64,000 nt of DNA from Spirochaetota bacterium (lineage in GTDB: Bacteria > Spirochaetota > Spirochaetia > Treponematales > UBA12059), in the NCBI GenBank assembly GCA_022703505.1, contig JAKLDN010000003.1:186001-250000 (forward strand), in the 5' to 3' direction. Made by a program: the position numbers and the translations under genes. Positions 40,529-59,180 of this stretch are shown one piece after another; position 1 is the first letter of the stretch, and every line of letters starts with the position of its first letter. Under the pieces are notes generated by a model, which was not told the DNA's origin, did no database searches, and was given only the letters and a program-made list of their open reading frames with translations.

Positions 40529-40569
40529 GGCGGCGGGGCGCCGAAGAGCCGCCGGGCTCCGGGAAATCG

Positions 40570-41049
40570 TTACGAAGCCCGGGCGGGGGCCCCGGCGGGC
40601 TTCCGGGACCGCTTGAAGAACTCGCCCATCTCCTCGGCCACGACGTTGAGGCCCTGGACCCGATCCTTGATCAGCTTGACCGCCTGGTAGACCTCCAGGG
40701 CCCCGGCTATGGCGTCGGAGTTGACCGCCATCTGGGTGTCCCGGAGGGAGTCCGCTAGCTGGTTAACCTGGTCCAGTATGGGGACGAGGTCCTTGGAGAG
40801 CTCGCAGTCCCGCTTGAGCTCCGCGGCGTCGAAGATCCGGGGCAGGATGTCCGGATGGTCGTTGACCACGTTGTACGCCTTGTCCACGAAGGCCGTGTAG
40901 CCGTTGCCCGTCTTGAACAGGGACTGCACCTGGTCGGGCCGGAGGGTCAGCAAAAACCCCAGGCTCTTGCGCACCGAGGCCAGCTTGGAAAGGATGTCCG
41001 CCTTGACCTCGTCGGAAAGGACCGCCGAAACGAGATTCTGTCTAGCCAT
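40570..41049 (-). CDS. Conserved helical protein of unknown function
   Basis: 159 residues from the ATG at 41049, which has a strong AGGAGG SD; the longer ORF upstream is not needed. The sequence is almost wholly helical (VKADILSKLASVRKSLGFLLTLRPDQ, LPRIFDAAELKRDCELSKDLVPILDQVNQLADSLRDT). It resembles a widespread uncharacterised small helical family that shares the motif order K-G-AFV, P-F-x-A-E-K-D-x-E-L-x-L-x-P-I; I cannot name it. It is monocistronic and borders the defence island. Confidence 0.75.
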   Translation of the reverse strand: MARQNLVSAVLSDEVKADILSKLASVRKSLGFLLTLRPDQVQSLFKTGNGYTAFVDKAYNVVNDHPDILPRIFDAAELKRDCELSKDLVPILDQVNQLADSLRDTQMAVNSDAIAGALEVYQAVKLIKDRVQGLNVVAEEMGEFFKRSRKPAGAPARAS

Positions 41050-41159
41050 GAAAACCTCCTGATTTTTACTGCGACCTATACAGGACGAACCAGTACGGAG
41101 GCGCCCCGGCAGAGGTTGTGTCACACCAGGGGAAAGTGTACGACGGATAATGCGAGAGT

Positions 41160-41183
41160 GCTTGTAGACATTTGTCTACAAGC
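41160..41183. repeat. Perfect 11-base inverted repeat at island edge
   Basis: GCTTGTAGACA (41160-41170) and TGTCTACAAGC (41173-41183) around two T. It lies in the 245-base gap between the helical-protein gene and the island's last gene; no U-run follows. The rest of 41050-41294 shows no other signal. It may be the 3'-end hairpin of the island transcript or a boundary. Confidence 0.6.
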
Positions 41184-41294
41184 GGAGGTGGAGGTGGAGG
41201 GGGGAGGATGCCGAAAGAGAGAGGTTATTCCTTAAGATGCTGATCTGGCACCCGTTATCGTGAGGAGTATTGGGCGATAGTTGCCGTACAACCG

Positions 41295-42374
41295 CTAAAA
41301 CGCATCCGGAACAAGCTTCAGCCGGTTGATCGAATCGAATGCTGTGGAAAGAGCGGCATGTGTTTCCAGTACTTCCCGGGAATCCCAGCATCTCAGCTTG
41401 TTCTTGAGTTCCGGAAGTGTCGCAGCCTCCGCTTTTATTTTTTCAAGTTGCCGTTCATCGCTCACGGCGACAACCGCCTGTACGGCTGGATTCGAGAGAG
41501 AGCGGAGGAGGTTGAGCTGAAGGCTGTCAATGCTGCCCGAAGTCTGAACCTCAAATGCGTAGAGCACGCGCCCCATGTTACTGATCGAAGCCTCCCACAG
41601 AACATCGATGCGGGTACCCGTGGTAACGGTCTGTTCCGTGCTTGTCTTGAATCCAAGCCACGTCCCGATCTCGGCGATCTTGTCCCGTACTTCGTTATGA
41701 ACGAATACCTGATCTTGTTGATTCTGGGCACCTTGCGTTTGACTTTGAACGGCTGATGGGATAACCGGGGGGTTCTTTTCTTGAACGAGGTCCCAAAAGA
41801 AGTAATCAACGAAGAGCATATCCACATCTTCAAAACCAGCGTTGGAAAGCGCGTCTGCGACACTTGAAGCCAGGTGGATCAGTCGATCATAGAATGCGCC
41901 TATGATCTGATAGTCGTATCTCGGAAGACTTGTTTCCCCAAGGCGTTCGAGCGCTTCCTTGGCTCTGCGGTTCCAGACGGGGAAACGACTAGGATAGTAA
42001 TGGGCGAGCAGTTCGCTAACCATCGCCGGTCCTATCTGAGATACACAATCTCGAAACCTATCCCACCTAATTGCGACTGGAGCGTCGTCATAAAGAAGGG
42101 AGGCAAGGTTATCTCTAACGACTTCGAGTGTATTTTTCTCGATGATAAGATCGGTATAGTAGCGCTTATTACCCCAGATCAACATGGCCCAAAGCCTGGA
42201 AAGATATTCCTCAAGAGAATCGGCGTTGAGGGTGAGCAGGCGTGCACGATTCCATGCCTGGAACCATGCGACACGCTCGCTTCGCTCCTGGCGAGCCTGG
42301 CGATATTCCTCGGGATTCGTTATGGAGCGTTCCTTATATTCTTGAATGCAATGGTCAAGCAGTTTCTGATCCAT
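41295..42374 (-). CDS. Putative PD-(D/E)XK-type nuclease-like protein of a restriction island
   Basis: 359 residues from the ATG at 42374 (GGGGGTGA upstream; GTG at 42383 is an alternative). The N-terminal 190 residues are helical and Trp/Arg-rich. The C-terminal part has VRDKIAEIGTWLGFKTSTE then RIDVLWEAS and LYAFEVQTSGSID, the order of beta strands and Asp...Glu-x-Gln expected of a PD-(D/E)XK fold with Gln in place of the usual Lys. It is 52 bases downstream of hsdM on the same strand. Lower GC than the chromosome. No named family recognised; function in DNA restriction is inference. Confidence 0.6.
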   Translation of the reverse strand: MDQKLLDHCIQEYKERSITNPEEYRQARQERSERVAWFQAWNRARLLTLNADSLEEYLSRLWAMLIWGNKRYYTDLIIEKNTLEVVRDNLASLLYDDAPVAIRWDRFRDCVSQIGPAMVSELLAHYYPSRFPVWNRRAKEALERLGETSLPRYDYQIIGAFYDRLIHLASSVADALSNAGFEDVDMLFVDYFFWDLVQEKNPPVIPSAVQSQTQGAQNQQDQVFVHNEVRDKIAEIGTWLGFKTSTEQTVTTGTRIDVLWEASISNMGRVLYAFEVQTSGSIDSLQLNLLRSLSNPAVQAVVAVSDERQLEKIKAEAATLPELKNKLRCWDSREVLETHAALSTAFDSINRLKLVPDAF

Positions 42375-42435
42375 GTCGCTCACCCCCTGATTTATGCGAT
42401 AATTTGGTGCGGTCCCTTTCTGTCCTCTCTCCGCC

Positions 42436-44049
42436 TCACCCCGGCGGCAGTAGGGGAAGCCCCAGCTCTTTCAGGAATTCGTTGTGTTTGTCCTGGGCCG
42501 TCTTGATCTCGTCCTCGATACGGACCAGGTCGGAATGGACCGAGGCCAGGTCGATCTCGGGCTCCTCCTGGGCCGTGCTAATGTACCGGGAAATATTGAG
42601 GTTGTAGCCTTCCTCCGCTATGCGGCCCATGGGGACGCGCGCGGAATACCGGGCTTCCTCCCGGCGGTGCTGGTAGGTATCCACGATCTTTTCGATGTGC
42701 TCGTCGAGAAGCACGTTCTGCCGCTTGCCCTTCTCGAAGTGCCCGGCGGCGTTGATGAAGAGGATGTCGTCGGGCTTCTTGCACTTCTTGAGCACCAGAA
42801 CGCAGACCGGGATGCCGGTGGAATAGAAAAGGTTGGCGGGCAGGCCGATGACGGTGTCGATGTGGCCGTCCTTCAAGAGCTTGGTGCGGATTTTTTCCTC
42901 CGCTCCTCTGCGGAACAGGACCCCGTGGGGCAGGATGATGGCCATCACGCCCTGATCCGAGAGGTAGTGGAAGCCGTGGAGGAGAAAGGCGAAGTCCGCG
43001 GCGGACTTGGGGGCCAGGCCGTGGTTCTTGAAGCGCACGTCGTCGGCCATGTCCTCCTTGGGTTCCCATCGGTAGCTGAAGGGGGGATTGGCCACGACGG
43101 CGTCGAACTTGGGCATCCGGGCCGGGTTGGTCTCCCTCAGGAAGTCCCAGTCGTTGGTAAGGGTGTCGCCGTGGTAGATCTCGAACTCCGTGTCCTTGAC
43201 CCCGTGCAGGAGCATGTTCATGCGCGCGAGGTTGTAGGTGGTGATGTTCTTCTCCTGGCCGCAGATCCTGCCGATGCCGTGGGGACCCATCTGCTTGCGC
43301 ACGTTCAGGAGCAGGGACCCGGAGCCGCAGGCGAAGTCCAGGACGCTCCCGAGGCGGGGAACCTTGCCGGTCGCGGGCTCCTGGCCGTCCAAGGTGACAA
43401 TGCGGGAGAGGATGGTGGAGATCTGCTGGGGGGTGTAGAACTCGCCGGCCTTCTTTCCCGACCCGGCTGCGAACTGGCCGATCAGGTACTCGTAGGCGTC
43501 CCCCAGGGAGTCCACGTCGGTGGAGAACTCGGAAAGGCCCTTGGCGATCTCCTTTACGATGTCGCAGAGCTTCTTGTTCTTGTCGGCGTGGGTGCGGCCG
43601 AGCTTTTCGGAGCCAAGGTTGATCTCCGAGAAGAGGCCCTGGAAGGTGCTCTCGAAGGACTCGTTCTCGATGTACTTGAAGCCGTCCCGCAGGGTGTCCA
43701 GGAGGTCGGGGCTCTGGTCCCGGGCGAGGTTGGCGATGTTGGTCCAGAGGTGGTCCGGCTTGATCACGTAGTGGATCTTGCGCCGCATCTGCTTTTCGAA
43801 GTCCACGATGTCGTCGGGATTGTTCGCGTACCAGACCGCAAGCGGTACGCGCGGGTCGCTGGCGGGGATGGCGGGGTAGTCCCGGGCAAGCTCCTTCTTG
43901 GCCGCGGCCTCGTAGTTGTCCGAGAGGTAGCGCAGGAAGAGGAAGGACAGCATGTAGTCGCGGAAATCGTCCGCGTTCATCGCGCCCCGCAGTTGGTCCG
44001 CGATGGCCCAGAGGGTCTTGCCGAGTTGTTGGTGGTTATAATCGGTCAT
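42436..44049 (-). CDS. hsdM: Type I restriction-modification system methyltransferase subunit HsdM
   Basis: 537 residues from the ATG at 44049. N-terminal helical domain (LGKTLWAIADQLRGAMNADDFRDYMLSFLFLRYL), SAM-binding VLDFACGSGSLLLNV, catalytic N6-adenine motif VVANPPFSYRW and a C-terminal region with KKCKKPDDILFINAAGHFEKGKRQN. It methylates adenine at the site chosen by HsdS. It lies after hsdS and the ATPase gene rather than directly after hsdR. GC content here is back near the chromosomal level. Confidence 0.96.
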   Translation of the reverse strand: MTDYNHQQLGKTLWAIADQLRGAMNADDFRDYMLSFLFLRYLSDNYEAAAKKELARDYPAIPASDPRVPLAVWYANNPDDIVDFEKQMRRKIHYVIKPDHLWTNIANLARDQSPDLLDTLRDGFKYIENESFESTFQGLFSEINLGSEKLGRTHADKNKKLCDIVKEIAKGLSEFSTDVDSLGDAYEYLIGQFAAGSGKKAGEFYTPQQISTILSRIVTLDGQEPATGKVPRLGSVLDFACGSGSLLLNVRKQMGPHGIGRICGQEKNITTYNLARMNMLLHGVKDTEFEIYHGDTLTNDWDFLRETNPARMPKFDAVVANPPFSYRWEPKEDMADDVRFKNHGLAPKSAADFAFLLHGFHYLSDQGVMAIILPHGVLFRRGAEEKIRTKLLKDGHIDTVIGLPANLFYSTGIPVCVLVLKKCKKPDDILFINAAGHFEKGKRQNVLLDEHIEKIVDTYQHRREEARYSARVPMGRIAEEGYNLNISRYISTAQEEPEIDLASVHSDLVRIEDEIKTAQDKHNEFLKELGLPLLPPG

Positions 44050-44052
44050 CAA

Positions 44053-45132
44053 TCACTCCGCATGCAATACAAACTTGAATTGATCCATCAGTTTCCCAAG
44101 GATGTCTGAAAATAGCCTTTTATTATCTTCTACGAGTTCATCGGATTCGTACAAGTAAATGTTCTTGTGGCTAAGCGTATTGACGGTCTGCGAGTATGTG
44201 TCAGAATCCTCAACACCAATGACTTGAAGAACATGGCCAACCTTTCCTGTCCCCAGAAAAGAAGCCATATTTTCTAATACCTGTCGAAGCAATACAAAAT
44301 GATAAGATTTAACTTCATCCATATCTTGCGCTTGCTTTAGTATCTGAAGCAAGCGCAAGTGGTATAGGAAGACATCTTTTTTGCAAGTTTCAAGAGTTAA
44401 ATCGCCATGTTTGCTACTGAGAATCATGGGGCATGTATAACGTTTGTACTTATCACTTTTTTCCCCTTTTTGAAGGTAATCGAATAGGATCGAGAATAAG
44501 CCAATATGGTGTGTTGCTATAATTATCTTCCGTTTCTCATAGTACTCATCTATAAGGTCGAATAGCGTAGATGACGTAATGAAGATGTTGTGATCATCTA
44601 GGCTGGACACGGGGTCGTCAATAAATAAGTGGCTAGAATTTATATCCGCCCATCCTTCCACTTCAAATAGAGCTAAAAAGAAACACCACACAAATATACG
44701 TTCTTCTCCTCTTGAAATCTTAATCGAGGGAGTAGCAACATCAAGGTCGGAATTGGGAATGAAAAAAGAGATGGACTTGATGCCCTTCTCTACATCATCA
44801 TGCATGGTAAACTCGAAATCATACTTTGGTTTGTACGCTTTCAGTTTCTTTCGAATAATGCCTTCTGTTAGTGAAGAGTGAAATTTGCTAAGCGTGCTTG
44901 GCTGAACAATAAGTCGAGTATCTGCACCATTATTTTCTTCATCGTTGTTCCAGACGAACAAATCCTCGCTGTATGCGTTGTAATAAACCCCAGTATGTGT
45001 TCCGTCGGTCAGTTTCGTTTCGTTTTTGTACGCGACGGAAAGTTGTGTCTTTCCGACGGCATTGAACCCAAAAACCAGAATAATCTTTGCGTCACTCTGC
45101 TTAAGTAATGTGGCTATCTCTGGTAGGGTCAT
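44053..45132 (-). CDS. ABC-type ATPase linked to type I restriction genes; possible PrrC-like anticodon nuclease
   Basis: 359 residues, markedly AT-rich compared with its neighbours. Walker A GFNAVGKT (22-29), signature-like SRGEERIFVWCFFLALFE, Walker B with D-loop LFIDDPVSSLDD and H-loop IIIATHHIG are those of SMC/ABC-like NTPases, including the N-domain of PrrC and RloA/RloC. Near the C-terminus, LLRQVLENM places Arg283 and Glu287 four apart and LSH places His322 35 residues later, 37 from the end. T4-type PrrC nuclease has Arg320, Glu324 and His356 with 40 residues after the His. It sits between hsdS (ATGA overlap) and hsdM, inside a restriction operon as prrC does. It could instead be a non-nuclease RloA-type ATPase. 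Confidence 0.6.
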   Translation of the reverse strand: MTLPEIATLLKQSDAKIILVFGFNAVGKTQLSVAYKNETKLTDGTHTGVYYNAYSEDLFVWNNDEENNGADTRLIVQPSTLSKFHSSLTEGIIRKKLKAYKPKYDFEFTMHDDVEKGIKSISFFIPNSDLDVATPSIKISRGEERIFVWCFFLALFEVEGWADINSSHLFIDDPVSSLDDHNIFITSSTLFDLIDEYYEKRKIIIATHHIGLFSILFDYLQKGEKSDKYKRYTCPMILSSKHGDLTLETCKKDVFLYHLRLLQILKQAQDMDEVKSYHFVLLRQVLENMASFLGTGKVGHVLQVIGVEDSDTYSQTVNTLSHKNIYLYESDELVEDNKRLFSDILGKLMDQFKFVLHAE

Positions 45133-46454
45133 AGATTAACCTCCGAGAATGGAAATAGCTGTTGCATTAGCCCCTTCTTGTGGGTCTTGAAGGCTTCGAT
45201 TCTGTCGGTTCGGGCGGAGATCAGGTCGTCCAGGGAGGAGAGGCAGGAGGCGATGCGGTGTTGTTCGGGAATTGAGGGTACTGCTATCGAGAAATTTCCG
45301 ATCTTTTCAAGTGTGACTCTTGTGATAGCCTGCCCTGACATCGAATCTATGATCTGGGTCTGAAGGTAGTCAGATAAGACTGAGTGAAACAAGAACTCCT
45401 GGTCGAGCGAGTCTCGCTTTCCTCGTAGCACAGCAACGCTTGAAAGTAGGGAGAACTCGAAATCGAGAATATTAAGGGCGCAATTGCCTGTATTAGCGCC
45501 ATCCTTTGTCAGAAGGACGTCGTGCCATTGCACTGGGCAACGATTGTAAATTGCATTGTGTTCTTCTTCAGAAATGTATGAAACATTCGACAGATCAATT
45601 TTACCATTATGAATGTTTTTGGATGTGAGATAAGGCCGAGGGCCAATCTTCGTCTTTGGAGAGAAGTGCGTCCCGTCCATGATTGTTTCGCATAGTTCTG
45701 TTAGTTTGCCGTACTTCCACTCCCCCGCATCCCGGAACTCCGGGAACCTCAGCCATGGCCGGGTTTCGCCTTCCCGGGGGAAGAGGTTCCGCAGAAGCCC
45801 CTTCTTGTGGGCCTTGAGCGCGTCGAGTTTCCGGGTTTCGGCGTCGATCAGGTCGTCCAGGGAGGAGAGGCAGGCGGCGATTTTATGTTGTTCGGCCTTG
45901 CTTCTGGGGATCGGGAGGATGATTTTAGTAAGACGAGATGCCGATAGGCCTAAAACCTTTGCACCTTGCGATTCTTTTTGGATTTGAGTACGGATGTGTT
46001 TTGATTTGAAAAGGTAGGCACCAAATCCAATGACCAGGATGTCGTCGTTTGGTCGAGCTAGAATCGTATGTTGACCGGCAACGACACGTTCGCCATTCAA
46101 TCGAACAATTTCGATGCTTTTCCCGATGTCATCCATGTCTTCCGACGCATCGGCGAAAACAATATCACCCTCAACGCAGTCGTTATCAGGACGGAAACCA
46201 TCTAACGACTCCGTGGGATTAATGAATGGGACCGTCTCACAGGTAACATCAAAGAGTGTGGAAAACTTGGTATGGATGTCGCCATAGTGAATATTCTTAA
46301 CGATACCCTGATTGTAATTGAGTTGGTCGCGGGAAAATGAGTTGTTGCCTTTGAATGAGTACACCTCACTCATCCGCATTCCTGTCCACCCCTCTGCATC
46401 CCGGAACTCCGGGAAGCGAAGCTTGGGCGTGAGGCGGGGCTTGTCGTCGTTCAT
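45129..46454 (-). CDS. hsdS: Type I restriction-modification specificity subunit HsdS
   Basis: 441 residues from the ATG at 46454, with AAGGA upstream. Two target-recognition domains, each introduced by RFPEFRDA-W and each followed by the conserved helix EQHxIAxCLSSLDDLIxAxT...HKKGLxxxLFP. The first TRD (SEVYSFKGNNSFS...) and the second (LCETIMDGTHFSPKTK...) read different half-sites. TRD-coding DNA is AT-rich, the conserved regions GC-rich. Exact DNA repeats at the two conserved regions could allow TRD exchange. Confidence 0.94.
   Translation of the reverse strand: MNDDKPRLTPKLRFPEFRDAEGWTGMRMSEVYSFKGNNSFSRDQLNYNQGIVKNIHYGDIHTKFSTLFDVTCETVPFINPTESLDGFRPDNDCVEGDIVFADASEDMDDIGKSIEIVRLNGERVVAGQHTILARPNDDILVIGFGAYLFKSKHIRTQIQKESQGAKVLGLSASRLTKIILPIPRSKAEQHKIAACLSSLDDLIDAETRKLDALKAHKKGLLRNLFPREGETRPWLRFPEFRDAGEWKYGKLTELCETIMDGTHFSPKTKIGPRPYLTSKNIHNGKIDLSNVSYISEEEHNAIYNRCPVQWHDVLLTKDGANTGNCALNILDFEFSLLSSVAVLRGKRDSLDQEFLFHSVLSDYLQTQIIDSMSGQAITRVTLEKIGNFSIAVPSIPEQHRIASCLSSLDDLISARTDRIEAFKTHKKGLMQQLFPFSEVNL
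45219..45874. repeat. 29-base exact direct repeats within hsdS
   Basis: The same 29 bases occur at 45219-45247 and 45846-45874 (the CLSSLDDLI helix), and a 20-base exact repeat GCATCCCGGAACTCCGGGAA occurs at 45727-45746 and 46396-46415 (the FPEFRDA segment). They flank the TRDs in the same orientation. Confidence 0.9.
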
Positions 46455-46471
46455 CCTGGATCCTTGATTCT

Positions 46472-49400
46472 TCACGATTCGTACGCGCTCAGTCCGGATA
46501 TGTCGCGGCCCCCGACGCGCTTCTTGAGCAGGGGGACGAGATCCTCCATGAGGGCCAGCTCCGCGGCCCGGCGGTCCTTCCACGGAAGGCTCCGGGGCTC
46601 CAGGAGTTCCGTGAGTCGTTCCCCGTCGAAGACCCTGCGCTCCAGGATCGCGTCCGTGAAGGTCCGGAGGCGGTCGGGGGCAAGACCGTGCTTCCGGGCG
46701 AGGCCGGCGAGTTCCGCGGCGCGGCGCTCGTCCCGGAATCGGCGGTAGCCGGCCTCGATCTCCTTCTGATCCAGGCCCTGGCCGGCCCTGAGGGTGCGGA
46801 CGTAGTCGGCGATGGTGTCGCCCTCGTCCAGGAACTTGGCGTCCGCCTGAATGAGGCCGATGAGCTGGTCCCGGCTCATCTTCAGCTTGTCCGGGCTCTC
46901 GTTGGAGAACCGGGCGAGCAGGGCCATGATGTAGTCGTAGTCGATGTCCGCGGAAGCGAAGAGGACGAACTCGAAGTCTAGCTGGTCCGCGGCGCTCTCG
47001 CCGGCGGCGCCGTCCCGGTCCCGCTCGGCGCGGAGGCGCTGGGCGGTCTCCAGGTACACGCCCCGGAAGGCGTTGAGCCGGTCTCGGGGCAGGAGCCGCT
47101 CCACGGCGGCCTCGGCCTCGGGGGGGATGTCGGTGTACTGGTCCAGTTGGGTCTTCAGGCGCTGGACCTCCCGGAAGCGCTCGACGAAGGCCGCCCGGGC
47201 CTCGTCGCCCCGCAGGGCGGGGACGGACTCGGGCTCGGGCTTAAGCCCCTGGGATCGCAGGAAGTCGTCCAGCCTGCTAAGGGCGGCGGTGAGCTTCTCG
47301 ACCACCTTGGGCGCGGGCTCCACCAGCCAGATCTCCCGGGCCTTGGTGTCGCTCTCCACCCCGGAGAAGAGGACGATGGCCGCGTCCACGGCGGCCTGCT
47401 GCTGGCGGAAGTCGAGAATCTGGCCGTGGGGTTTTGCGGCGTTGAGCACCCGGTTGGTCCGGGAGAAGGCCTGGATGAGGCCGTGGTGCCGGAGGTTTTT
47501 GTCCACGTAGAGGGTGTTGAGATACTGGGAGTCGAAGCCGGTCAGAAGCATGTCCACCACGATGGTGAGGTCGATCTTCTCCCGGCCCCTGCGGGGGAGG
47601 TCGGCGTTGGGGAACTTCTGGTCTTTGATGCGCTTCTGGACGTCCTGGTAGTAGAGGTCGAAGTCCCCGAGGGAGTGGTTGGTGCCGTAGGAGGAATTGT
47701 AGGCCTCGAGGATGGAACGGAGGGCGGCCTTCTTGCGGTCCGGGTCCTTCTCGTTGTCGGCCTTTTCCTGGGGGAGGTCCTCCTGGAGCTGGCGCACGTC
47801 GGCGTCCCCGTCCGCGGGAGGGGAGAAGACGCAGGCGATCTTGAGGGGAACGAAGTCCGGATCCTCGACCCGGCGCTCGGCCTGGAGGGTTCGGAAGAGC
47901 CCGAAGTATTCGACGGCGTCGTCGATGGAGGCCGTGGCCAGGAGGGCGTTGAAGCGGCGCTGATGGGTGGCGGCGTCGTGCTTGTCCAGAATGGCCGCGA
48001 CGATCTTCTCCTTCTTCAACGTCTCACCCGGCTTGAGCTCCGCCTCGCCCTCGGGGCGGTAGTAGTCCACGTGGAAGCGCAGGACGTTCCGGTCCTCGAT
48101 GGCGTGGGTGATGGTGTACCTGTGCAGTTCCCGCTGGAAGGTGTCCACGGTGGTGCGGAAGGACGCCCGGTCGTCCTCGACCTGGACGCGGGTGGCGTTC
48201 TCCTCGAAGATGGGCGTGCCGGTGAATCCGAAGAGCTGGGCCCGGGGAAAGAAGTCCCGGATGGCCTGGTGGTTGTCCCCGAACTGGGACCGGTGGCACT
48301 CGTCGAAGATGAAGACGAATCGCTTATTCCGCAGGGGCTCCAGGCGCTCCGTGAATGTCTCGCGGCCGCGGTCGGCCCTCGGGCGGTTGCGCTTGCTGTT
48401 CTCGTCCAGGGCCAGGCCGAGCTTCTGGATGGTGGTGACGATGACCTTGTCCGCCTTGTCCTCGGAGAGCATGCGCCGGACCAGGGCGGCGGTGTTGGTG
48501 TTCTCCTCCACGCAGCCTTCCTGGAAGCGGTTGAACTCTTCCCGGGTCTGGCGGTCCAGGTCCTTGCGGTCCACGACGAAGAGGCACTTGTCGATGGCCG
48601 GATTGTCCTTGAGGAGGGTGGATGCCTTGAAGGAGGTGAGGGTCTTGCCGCTGCCGGTGGTGTGCCAGATGTAGCCGTTGCCGTTGTCCTGCTCGATGCA
48701 GTCCAGGATGGCCTGGACCGCGTAGATCTGGTAGGGCCGCATTATGAGTAGCTTCTGCTCGCTCTGGATGAGGACCATGTAGCGGCTGATCATGCGGCCC
48801 AGGACGCACTTCTGGAGGAAGCGGTCGGAGAAATCGTCCAGGTGGTTTACGGGCGTGTTGTCCGGATCGGCGAAGCGATAGACCGGGAGAAACTGTTCGG
48901 AGGCGTTGAAGGCGAAGTGCCGGGGGTTGTTGTTGGCGAAGTAGAAGGTCTCGGTTCGGTTGCTGACGATGAAGAGCTGGATGAAACACAGGAGGGTGCG
49001 GGTGTACCCGTTGCCGGGATCGCTCTTGTATTCGACCACCTGCTCCATGGCGCGGCGGGGGCTGACGCCCAGGGTCTTGAGCTCGACTTGGACCACGGGC
49101 ACCCCGTTGATGAGTAGCAGGACGTCGTACCGGTGGTGGCTGTAGTCCGTGTTGATGCGGAGCTGGTGGACGACCTCGAAGTCGTTCTTGCACCAGTCGC
49201 GGATGTTGACGAGAGTGTAGGACAGCGGGGTGCCGTCGTCCCGGAAGAAGTCGCTCTTTTCCCGGAGGACTTTGCTTGCGGCGAAGACGTCCGGGGTGAC
49301 CAGTTCGTCCAGGAGGCGCTGGAACTCGCCGTCCGTGAGGTGGACGCGGTTCAAGGCCTCGAACTTCCCGCGGAAGTTGAGCTCCAGGGCGGCCCGGTCG

Positions 49401-49570
49401 CGGATGTCCGGACGGTAGGCATACTTGAGCCCGCGCAGCTTCTCGATGAACGCAGTTTCGATGTCCTGCTCCCGGACGTAGAGGGGCTTGGAATCGGATC
49501 CCTGCGGGTAGGTCGCGTCAGAAGCTGGTTTCATGGAATCGTGGTTTTTATTCGATTCGGGATCCGACAT
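46472..49570 (-). CDS. hsdR: Type I restriction enzyme HsdR
   Basis: 1032 residues. N-terminal nuclease motif YDVLLLINGVPVVQVELKTLG (Asp...Glu-x-Lys), motor domain with HTTGSGKTLTSF (Walker A), FIFDECHRSQFGD (DEAH-like box) and FGFTGTPIFEENA, and helicase VVDMLLTGFDSQYLNTLYVDK. It translocates and cuts DNA lacking the HsdM mark. It ends 17 bases before hsdS and begins 19 bases after the SecB-like gene, all on one strand. Confidence 0.96.
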   Translation of the reverse strand: MSDPESNKNHDSMKPASDATYPQGSDSKPLYVREQDIETAFIEKLRGLKYAYRPDIRDRAALELNFRGKFEALNRVHLTDGEFQRLLDELVTPDVFAASKVLREKSDFFRDDGTPLSYTLVNIRDWCKNDFEVVHQLRINTDYSHHRYDVLLLINGVPVVQVELKTLGVSPRRAMEQVVEYKSDPGNGYTRTLLCFIQLFIVSNRTETFYFANNNPRHFAFNASEQFLPVYRFADPDNTPVNHLDDFSDRFLQKCVLGRMISRYMVLIQSEQKLLIMRPYQIYAVQAILDCIEQDNGNGYIWHTTGSGKTLTSFKASTLLKDNPAIDKCLFVVDRKDLDRQTREEFNRFQEGCVEENTNTAALVRRMLSEDKADKVIVTTIQKLGLALDENSKRNRPRADRGRETFTERLEPLRNKRFVFIFDECHRSQFGDNHQAIRDFFPRAQLFGFTGTPIFEENATRVQVEDDRASFRTTVDTFQRELHRYTITHAIEDRNVLRFHVDYYRPEGEAELKPGETLKKEKIVAAILDKHDAATHQRRFNALLATASIDDAVEYFGLFRTLQAERRVEDPDFVPLKIACVFSPPADGDADVRQLQEDLPQEKADNEKDPDRKKAALRSILEAYNSSYGTNHSLGDFDLYYQDVQKRIKDQKFPNADLPRRGREKIDLTIVVDMLLTGFDSQYLNTLYVDKNLRHHGLIQAFSRTNRVLNAAKPHGQILDFRQQQAAVDAAIVLFSGVESDTKAREIWLVEPAPKVVEKLTAALSRLDDFLRSQGLKPEPESVPALRGDEARAAFVERFREVQRLKTQLDQYTDIPPEAEAAVERLLPRDRLNAFRGVYLETAQRLRAERDRDGAAGESAADQLDFEFVLFASADIDYDYIMALLARFSNESPDKLKMSRDQLIGLIQADAKFLDEGDTIADYVRTLRAGQGLDQKEIEAGYRRFRDERRAAELAGLARKHGLAPDRLRTFTDAILERRVFDGERLTELLEPRSLPWKDRRAAELALMEDLVPLLKKRVGGRDISGLSAYES

Positions 49571-49589
49571 AGACAGCCTCGCTCCAATC

Positions 49590-50030
49590 CTACAGAAGCC
49601 AGGGAAGTGAAACCGGCGCCATACCCAGGCGGCTCATCCCGTCGTGCGCGTGCTGACGGAAGAGGGGCCAGAGGGTCCTTTGGATCTGTTTTTCCATGAA
49701 AACCTTTCGCACCTCTTCGTCGGCCCACAACTCCGTGAACGTCGGGAGATCGGTGACGCCGAATGCGATGATGAACCCGGATTCCTGTTTGAAGAACGGA
49801 GCATCCTGGAAGCTTACCGTAAGCTCGTATTTCATGCGAAACACCCTTGTATCCGGTATTGGAGCCAACGGGTCGTCCTGGGCAAAGGACTGCTTGCATT
49901 CGATCGTAAGGTTGCTTCCCGGAGCCGGCATAGGGCCGAGCGCCTCGGAGCGCAACAGCATAGGTTTGATATCCTGTAGAGTGATTGCGTGGAGGAATCT
50001 CGTCAGCCTGTCGTTGATGCCGCCGCTCAT
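49590..50030 (-). CDS. SecB-like chaperone of a toxin-antitoxin-chaperone module
   Basis: 146 residues (SecB is about 155). Features that fit SecB: VFRMKYELTVSFQDAPFFKQESGFIIAFGV, followed by EKQIQRTLWPLFRQHAHDGMSRLGMAPVSLPWL, which matches SecB's LFPYARE...RGGFPPLxLxP pattern. The ATG at 50030 overlaps the antitoxin stop (TGATG). In known tripartite TAC systems a SecB-like protein protects the antitoxin from degradation and helps it fold. Assignment rests on weak similarity plus context. Confidence 0.68.
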   Translation of the reverse strand: MSGGINDRLTRFLHAITLQDIKPMLLRSEALGPMPAPGSNLTIECKQSFAQDDPLAPIPDTRVFRMKYELTVSFQDAPFFKQESGFIIAFGVTDLPTFTELWADEEVRKVFMEKQIQRTLWPLFRQHAHDGMSRLGMAPVSLPWLL

Positions 50031-50737
50031 CACGCCGCTCCTTGGCTGTGGTTGGGTTGAACGACTGTCTTCGGAAGCTCCGTGGTCGTTTCGTCGGACC
50101 ATCGAGCCTCGATATACAACCGAGAATAGTCCTGAAAGGAGGCCGCGCCGACGTATATGGCAACTTGCTCCGGTATCGTACGGTCGTTGCGCTCGGCGCA
50201 GGCCTCGATCTTCTCGCGTTGGATCGGAGTGAGACATCCCGAAAGGGCGCCCAGCCCCGACCAGCGGAGCGCCGATCGGACGCCTTCGGACTCCTCGATT
50301 CGGCGACGCTGGATGGCTCCGATCCTGCCGGAGTTGATGTCGTACATCGCCTTGAACGTACAGGGGTCGGCGGCGAGTTTCAGAAGTAGACGATTGGCGG
50401 GGCCGGGCGGAGCCCCCTTCTCGTAGCTGTTCATGGTGAGCTCCCCGAACCCGAGGATGGCTCCGAAGGCCTTTTGGCTGGCGCCGTAGCGGGTTCGAAG
50501 AGCCACGAGGTCCGCGGGAGAAGGAGCCTCGTACAACAGGGCATACGCCTCGCGGGCGGCCTCGAGATTCTCGTCGAGCTGGCCGGGGGCCTCAAACTCG
50601 TCTCCGCAAGTGAGACAGCGCGAGTAGTGGGCGTTGAAAGAAACCTCCTTGCCCTTGATCGTCACCTGTTCAACCCGCTCGACGATCTCGATATCACGGG
50701 TTGTCCCGCAGCGAGAGCACGGCTGTCGATTACTCAT
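50030..50737 (-). CDS. MqsA-like antitoxin with zinc finger, HTH and C-terminal extension
   Basis: 235 residues from the ATG at 50737 (GAGGG upstream; it overlaps the toxin stop by 8 bases). Cys7, Cys10, Cys41 and Cys44 form an MqsA/YgiT-type zinc site. A helix-turn-helix follows at about 77-130 (LVALRTRYGASQKAFGAILGFGELTMNSYEKG). E. coli MqsA is 131 residues; here about 100 more residues follow. This size is expected if the tail carries a chaperone-addiction sequence as in TAC antitoxins. Likely represses its own operon at the palindrome 51111-51128. Confidence 0.78.
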   Translation of the reverse strand: MSNRQPCSRCGTTRDIEIVERVEQVTIKGKEVSFNAHYSRCLTCGDEFEAPGQLDENLEAAREAYALLYEAPSPADLVALRTRYGASQKAFGAILGFGELTMNSYEKGAPPGPANRLLLKLAADPCTFKAMYDINSGRIGAIQRRRIEESEGVRSALRWSGLGALSGCLTPIQREKIEACAERNDRTIPEQVAIYVGAASFQDYSRLYIEARWSDETTTELPKTVVQPNHSQGAA

Positions 50738-51059
50738 AATTGCCCTCATCATGAAACGACATCACGATACCGGCATCCCCATCGGTGTCGGTCCAGATCT
50801 TCAGCTTGATGTACAACAGAATCCCGTCTCCCGGTGGTGCCTGTCGCGTATACGGCTGATAAAAGATCATCACGTCTCCAGGCGACCCATCATCATCGGG
50901 CTCCGGCCCTTTGGCATAGTGCTCGGGCCTCAGATCTGCGATGATCTCGTAGGCGTCCTCCTCGCTAAGTCCTTCATCCAGCATGAATTCCTTTGTCTTA
51001 CGCCTGTTGCGGGGCTTCCAGGCGAGCTTTCGAGCCGCTAGAAGTGGCTTGAGGCGCAT
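50730..51059 (-). CDS. MqsR-like toxin (probable mRNA interferase)
   Basis: 109 residues from the ATG at 51059; a 120-residue version from the ATG at 51092 is possible, but that codon lies two bases from the predicted -10, upstream of the expected transcription start. The pattern KTKEFMLDEGLSEEDAYEIIADLRPEHYAKGPEPD, then ILLYIKLKIW and GIVMSFHDE, fits MqsR-like RelE-fold toxins, which cut mRNA. It is first in the operon, toxin before antitoxin as in E. coli mqsRA. Confidence 0.68.
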   Translation of the reverse strand: MRLKPLLAARKLAWKPRNRRKTKEFMLDEGLSEEDAYEIIADLRPEHYAKGPEPDDDGSPGDVMIFYQPYTRQAPPGDGILLYIKLKIWTDTDGDAGIVMSFHDEGNYE

Positions 51060-51094
51060 GAGGAATAGCTGGGTCGCGAGCGTTCCGCCCATTC

Positions 51095-51123
51095 AATATA
51101 CTCCCATTATCGGTATCGCGCAA
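51095..51123 (-). promoter_or_regulatory. Promoter of the toxin-antitoxin-chaperone genes
   Basis: Minus strand: TTGCGC (51123-51118), 17 bases, TATATT (51100-51095). Transcription would start about 51088. The region is AT-rich. Confidence 0.55.
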
Positions 51124-51128
51124 TACCG
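51111..51128. promoter_or_regulatory. Palindromic operator candidate of the TA operon
   Basis: CGGTAT-CGCGCA-ATACCG, 6+6 bases symmetric around a 6-base gap, overlapping the -35. This is where an MqsA-type autorepressor would bind. Confidence 0.55.
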
Positions 51129-51546
51129 GTATGTGGGCTCATTTGAAGAATCCATTCCTAGAAAGAATAGAAGTAATGAGTATACATAGATAGAACGGCA
51201 CCCTTGCTTTCATGGTTTTACCTTTTCTTGAGATGAAAACATGATAGCGAACTCCGGGGAAAAGACAAGATATCAATCCCCGGTGTTAACAATATGGTGG
51301 TCAATCATACCGTCTTTGATTGAAATATGGCTCCAACCTACGAGGGGGTAGCGGAGTCCACTGCAGCGCCCTTCAGGGCGCGAGGAGGACGTAGCAAGGG
51401 GGAGCCACGTCTGCAACCCCCGCCTTCGCCCTTTGGGCGAAGGCGGCGAACACGCGGAACCGGGCTTCCCGCAGCAGGCCCCGCGTTGCTTGAAGGATAT
51501 TCGACGCTTCCCGAGGAGCTCCGCCGCGGGTGCTACCCCGAAAGGT
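51129..51546. other. 418-base intergenic stretch with strong hairpins and no gene
   Basis: 51129-51325 is AT-rich and belongs in character to the island. 51326-51546 is GC-rich and structured: GCGCCC-TTCA-GGGCGC (51366-51381), an 11-base perfect stem CGCCTTCGCCC-TTT-GGGCGAAGGCG (51421-51445), and GGCTCC near 51329 pairing with GGGAGCC near 51400. No open frame here has family features, no T-run follows the stems. It may be a non-coding RNA or a degraded repeat. Confidence 0.5.
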
Positions 51547-59107: not shown

Positions 59108-59180
59108 TGAGCCGCGCAGGGATCGAACCTGCGACCCGCAGATTAAGAGTCTGCTGCTCTACCAGCTGAGCTAGCGGCCC
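59108..59180 (-). tRNA. tRNA-Lys (CTT)
   Basis: 73 bases. Acceptor GGGCCGC/GCGGCTC (one G-U pair), anticodon stem CAGA/TCTG with CTT in loop CTCTTAA, T loop TTCGATC. Confidence 0.94.

Follow-up and report, generated by a model that had tools for sequence, protein, structure and literature searches.

The hsd-prrC operon and its occurrence in other genomes

The window, a stretch of 64,000 nucleotides from a spirochaete contig, carries on its minus strand a type IC restriction operon of four genes in the order hsdR-hsdS-prrC-hsdM (R-S-C-M). The product of hsdR (46472..49570) contains the nuclease motif D...ELK and an EcoR124_C domain (Pfam, E 3e-61), as is characteristic of type IC enzymes. It is followed by hsdS (45129..46454, ATG at 46454), which encodes two target-recognition domains, by the prrC homologue (44053..45132) and by hsdM (42436..44049), whose product has the NPPF motif. 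The prrC frame runs from ATG to TGA on the minus strand, the opposite strand being riddled with stops, and encodes 359 amino acids that form an ABC NTPase head (residues ~1-255) and a C-terminal HEPN-like nuclease domain (~256-359). The genes are tightly packed: hsdS and prrC share a 4-base ATGA overlap and the ATG of hsdM lies 3 bases past the prrC stop. HsdR, HsdS and HsdM have full-length domains, the type IC set is complete, and the restriction operon around prrC is apparently intact. An earlier note on this DNA had placed a candidate anticodon nuclease between hsdS and hsdM of a type Ic locus, and the arrangement found here is the one it described, on the minus strand.

The arrangement recurs widely. 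The genome loci used for comparison (L008-L087) are the best 80 of at least 570, found by N-terminal motifs only and retained as the best matches to a query led by the window protein. In 77 of these 80, prrC is immediately flanked by hsdS and hsdM; hsdR is upstream in 73 of those 77, the other 4 having none on the available stretch. The 80 loci span Pseudomonadota, Bacteroidota, Cyanobacteriota, Campylobacterota, Bacillota, Chloroflexota and others, and the order R-S-C-M is already known from the Klebsiella system PrrC170. The order M-S-C-R is found in the E. coli-type loci L003, L005 and L088. Within the family of the window host, a PrrC match is present in only 2 of 23 genomes; one same-family genome (G020, locus L006) and 'Spirochaetes bacterium GWB1_60_80' (L053) have identical PrrC proteins.

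Two loci have unusual compositions. In Halomonas (L038:8001-11900) a single type I operon contains two different PrrC genes, one of clade C and one of clade B (clades as defined below). At the PrrC locus of a Klebsiella plasmid (L002:1943-5730) genes for a TrlF-family ATPase and for a protein with an RNA-binding domain are placed between hsdR and hsdS, and likewise in L106.

Motifs, clades and the proposed tRNA target

The PADLOC PrrC model PDLC02360 matches the window protein from end to end (residues 2-356, E 4.3e-98, 326.8 bits), the next PADLOC families reaching at most 37 bits; the same model scores the E. coli-type protein L003:6905-8095 at 490 bits. The window protein and this E. coli-type PrrC share 30% identity over nearly the full length. 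Pfam recognizes AAA_13 over its cutoff (E 8.6e-12), and phmmer and profile searches against solved structures found no whole-protein relative. In an alignment of 94 homologues, fetched mostly via N-terminal motifs, lengths range from 350 to 456 amino acids with a median of 360.5. The proposal that 359 residues represent a compact form was consequently rejected, this being a normal length for the family, and by alignment the window protein is a full-length PrrC-family member.

The motifs of a PrrC-type NTPase, as read in the earlier note (Walker A, D-loop and H-loop), are conserved in this alignment. Walker A is GFNAVGKT (residues 22-29, 45046..45069, minus strand as for all the following), with N24, G27, K28 and T29 invariant in the 94 homologues and Ala in 91 of them at residue 22, where the window protein has Gly. 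Residues 50-64 (44941..44985), YYNAYSEDLFVWNND, probably correspond to the 15-residue 'PrrC box', an assignment of our own; Y50, N52, A53, E56, D57, F59, W61 and N63 are kept in at least 93 of the 94 homologues. The ABC signature-like SRGEE (residues 140-144, 44701..44715) has S140, G142 and E143 in all 94. Walker B and the D-loop form LFIDDPVSSLDDH (residues 169-181, 44590..44628), of which LFIDDPVSSLDD covers residues ~169-180; D172, D173 and P174 are found in 94/94 and D179 in 93/94. The H-loop His208 (44509..44511) is also invariant (94/94).

In the C-terminal part, the catalytic Arg283 to Glu287 (RQVLE, 44272..44286) and His322 (44167..44169) align with R320/E324 and H356 of E. coli-type PrrC. 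The reference, L003:6905-8095, is a protein of 396 amino acids from an E. coli plasmid, annotated 'anticodon nuclease', with R320, E324, H356 and D287 at the exact published EcoPrrC positions. The spacings of 4 and 35 residues, with 37 residues past the His, were correctly read in the earlier note. R283 and H322 are present in all 94 homologues and E287 in 93, the remaining one having Asp. Since N-terminal motifs alone were used to find the 80 genome loci, their choice did not favour this conservation. Mutations in the triad abolish the activity of EcoPrrC (PMC3014915) and of RloC (PMC2610378).

The tree resolves three well-supported groups. Clade A comprises the E. coli type with M-S-C-R order (support 100/99) and clade B the Klebsiella/Synechococcus type with R-S-C-M order (100/98). 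Clade C, which includes the window protein, is split from A and B by a 100/100 branch; it holds 81 of the 94 homologues sampled, a share that reflects the best 80 of at least 570 loci matched by a window-led query and hence is no census. A signature RQxLEN surrounds the catalytic Arg and Glu in clade C, with Q284 in 81/81 and Asn at this position in the E. coli type.

By alignment, the region matching the tRNA-Lys recognition peptide of EcoPrrC (284-294) is KKDVFLYHL in the window protein (residues 251-259, 44356..44382), as against KYGDSNxxFSYHL in the E. coli type; in clade C the peptide is three residues shorter. His258 is invariant in this region (94/94) and the following Leu is retained, while the acidic residue at position 253 is moderately conserved in clade C (Asp 43/81, Glu 11/81). 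The EcoPrrC-type peptide is conserved only in a subset of homologues (PMC3014915); as it does not define the family, a shorter peptide does not exclude PrrC membership.

We infer that PrrC170 belongs to clade B from the bacterium that carries it, the order of its operon and its identity to EcoPrrC; the clade B protein L002 is 34% identical to EcoPrrC, and 35% is reported for PrrC170. The tested PrrCs whose position can be judged (EcoPrrC and PrrC170) thus fall in clade A and probably in clade B, the proteins of H. influenzae and S. mutans, also tested, standing outside that judgement; an experimental test of a clade C member was not found in the literature. With EcoPrrC in A and PrrC170 presumably in B, the substrate of clade C is not bracketed by them. 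The host genome encodes tRNA-Lys with UUU and CUU anticodons, the latter also within the window (59108-59180), and by analogy tRNA-Lys would be the best single guess for the substrate of the window protein.

It is possible, though we would not expect it, that the window protein is a PrrC-fold RNase directed at another tRNA or at several tRNAs. The recognition peptide three residues shorter than that of the E. coli type, the RQxLEN signature of clade C with its invariant Q284 in place of Asn, and the fully supported split from clades A and B, where the known tRNA-Lys cleavers sit or probably sit, would all fit such a change of target, and a review notes that substrates may vary because the recognition peptide varies among PrrCs (PMC3014915). 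However, PrrC170 targets tRNA-Lys (PMC11555353) although it is probably a clade B protein and would then be without the insert, and His258 and the following Leu are retained. More doubtful is the extension of this reading to the whole of clade C, a broad group with R-S-C-M order, RQxLEN and a shortened peptide, which might act on a substrate other than tRNA-Lys and form a distinct PrrC specificity class.

The C-terminal domain and the defence island

The spacing of the triad residues is weak evidence by itself, given that the bare pattern R-x3-E-x(30-51)-H occurs within the last 120 amino acids of 118 of 875 unrelated ORFs (~13%). This figure, together with the fact that Pfam yields only 'AAA domain', is what speaks for a generic ATPase, SMC/RecF-like, that assists the restriction enzyme and has the triad only incidentally. 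We consider this very improbable: the PrrC model spans the whole protein, and most of the C-terminal domain varies around a triad that is invariant. It is this conservation in homologues, and not the spacing, that raises the triad above chance; the close relatives keep R-x3-E...H, the absence of which the earlier note would have taken against its own reading.

Structure prediction further argues against a generic ATPase. The whole-protein model has a pLDDT of 89, and residues 1-260 match best the heads of Rad50 and SMC proteins (Z up to 12.9). As the fold search with the full model returned only ABC heads, the C-terminal 112 residues (248-359) were modelled alone, giving a predicted five-helix bundle (pLDDT 87, pTM 0.81). 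The eight PDB entries that align best with this bundle are all HEPN proteins (Z 6.6-7.5), followed by Csm6' (Z 6.3). These values are modest for a helical bundle (Z below 8, and Foldseek alone gives E ~0.8), and they agree with the published placement of PrrC and RloC in the HEPN superfamily (PMC3710099). The C-terminal part would therefore fold separately as a helical domain rather than being the tail of the ATPase fold, a case that the earlier note had raised against itself. HEPN toxins (PDB 7ae6, 2hsb, 8xdj) have a similar helical bundle (Z 6.8-7.5) but are stand-alone proteins, classically with an Rx4-6H motif, and less than 10% identical to the C-terminal domain. The classical Rx4-6H motif is absent from the window protein, in which the His lies 35 residues after the Glu.

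The G+C content (GC3 in parentheses) is 40.0% (0.43) for prrC, 50% (0.57) for hsdS, 62% (0.91) for hsdM and 65% (0.92) for hsdR. A value by far the lowest in the operon could indicate a decayed or inactive copy of the gene, yet the frame is open, the overlaps are correct and all motifs are intact, and low G+C is usual for prrC; decay is thus a very unlikely explanation. In each of the 75 loci with all four genes (from the best 80 of at least 570) prrC exceeds hsdM in A+T content, so that the direction of the difference is a family trait. The gap averages 7 points and reaches at most 19; that of the window, 22 points, is the largest. Across phyla and G+C ranges, prrC is also AT-richer than hsdS in 67 of the 75 loci.

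The operon is part of a defence island of ~11 kb (40536..51523) that is absent from two congeneric genomes, in which the flanks are collinear on both sides: sequences matching the window as far as 40515/40535 are followed there, after only ~20-130 bases, by sequences matching it from 51524/51565 onwards. The simpler explanation is that the island was inserted in the lineage of the window; it may instead have been lost in both congeners. At the island edges neither a clear target-site duplication nor long inverted repeats were found, direct repeats being 9 bases at most. The low G+C of prrC relative to hsdM and hsdR, pointed out in the earlier note, was confirmed. The separate acquisition of prrC deduced from it was rejected as stated, since AT-richness is general and the whole island appears to have been inserted. 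The island may nevertheless be a mosaic within itself, because the gap in the window (0.22) exceeds that of all other loci (maximum 0.19).

Other genes of the island flank the operon on the same strand. Upstream of hsdR lie an ORF of 146 amino acids (49590-50030), SecB-like by eye and without a Pfam match, a MqsA-family antitoxin extended by a long C-terminal stretch (50030-50752, TIGR03830 E 3e-20) and a MqsR-like toxin (50730-51092) with a sub-threshold Pfam match; the region 49590-51092 is possibly a toxin-antitoxin-chaperone set. Directly downstream of hsdM, a gene for a protein of 362 amino acids (41295-42383) has a 38% identical homologue also after hsdM in Bergeyella (L079:10797-11879), and further homologues away from restriction loci. 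The N-terminal part of this protein has a weak OGG-like match and its C-terminal part a nuclease-like D...E-x-Q motif by eye.

Relation to known anticodon nucleases and proposed mechanism

The window protein shares with EcoPrrC of the EcoprrI system (prrABCD) full-length homology, the triad, the ABC motifs and type IC linkage. It differs from the E. coli-type relative L003 in size and gene order and in lacking three residues of the recognition peptide, and the two are 30% identical. PrrC170 of Klebsiella quasipneumoniae, encoded in R-S-C-M order, gives protection from T1 and T7 and causes depletion of tRNA-Lys (PMC11555353). The order HsdR-HsdS-PrrC-HsdM, the ABC ATPase and the homology to EcoPrrC are common to both proteins. 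PrrC170, with the recognition region 'DTPFFHH', is likely of clade B, whose member L002 shares 34% identity with the window protein. Its tRNA-Lys depletion and phage defence are measured results; for the window system they are predictions.

RloC, a DNA-damage-responsive nuclease that excises the wobble nucleotide, also combines a Rad50-like ABC head with an anticodon nuclease domain bearing the Arg-x3-Glu...His triad (PMC2610378), but it is much larger, contains a coiled-coil with a CXXC zinc hook and seldom shows linkage to type I loci (PMC2610378), while the window protein has 359 amino acids, no CXXC in its translation, no coiled-coil insert in its model, a place in a type IC operon and a PrrC score of 327 bits as against at most 37 for the next PADLOC families; an RloC-type enzyme was rejected on architecture and deserves hardly any credence.

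Taking into account (i) the family match, (ii) the conservation in the alignment, (iii) the gene order shared by 77 of 80 loci and (iv) the predicted structure, which together support the core reading of the earlier note, the gene very probably encodes a PrrC-family anticodon nuclease of a type IC operon, acting by a mechanism that we take from its homologues. PrrC and PrrC170 serve as the models for latency, for the trigger, for the chemistry of the cut and for the abortive outcome. The prrC product would be made together with HsdR, HsdS and HsdM from the tight operon and kept latent in a complex with the restriction enzyme on DNA. A phage anti-restriction factor would disturb this complex, upon which the N-terminal ABC NTPase would change its state and release the C-terminal HEPN-like domain. 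Arg283, Glu287 and His322 would then carry out a metal-independent cut in the anticodon loop of the tRNA, 5' of the wobble base. Cleavage of the tRNA would stop translation and, with it, the infection.

The locus adds a clear PrrC system in a spirochaete that is probably of high GC. Moreover, the best-populated PrrC branch among those sampled has a fixed operon layout and a recognition region unlike that of the classical enzyme. Depending on the substrate of clade C, tRNA-Lys would be either the target of all PrrCs or one confined to the E. coli and Klebsiella branches.
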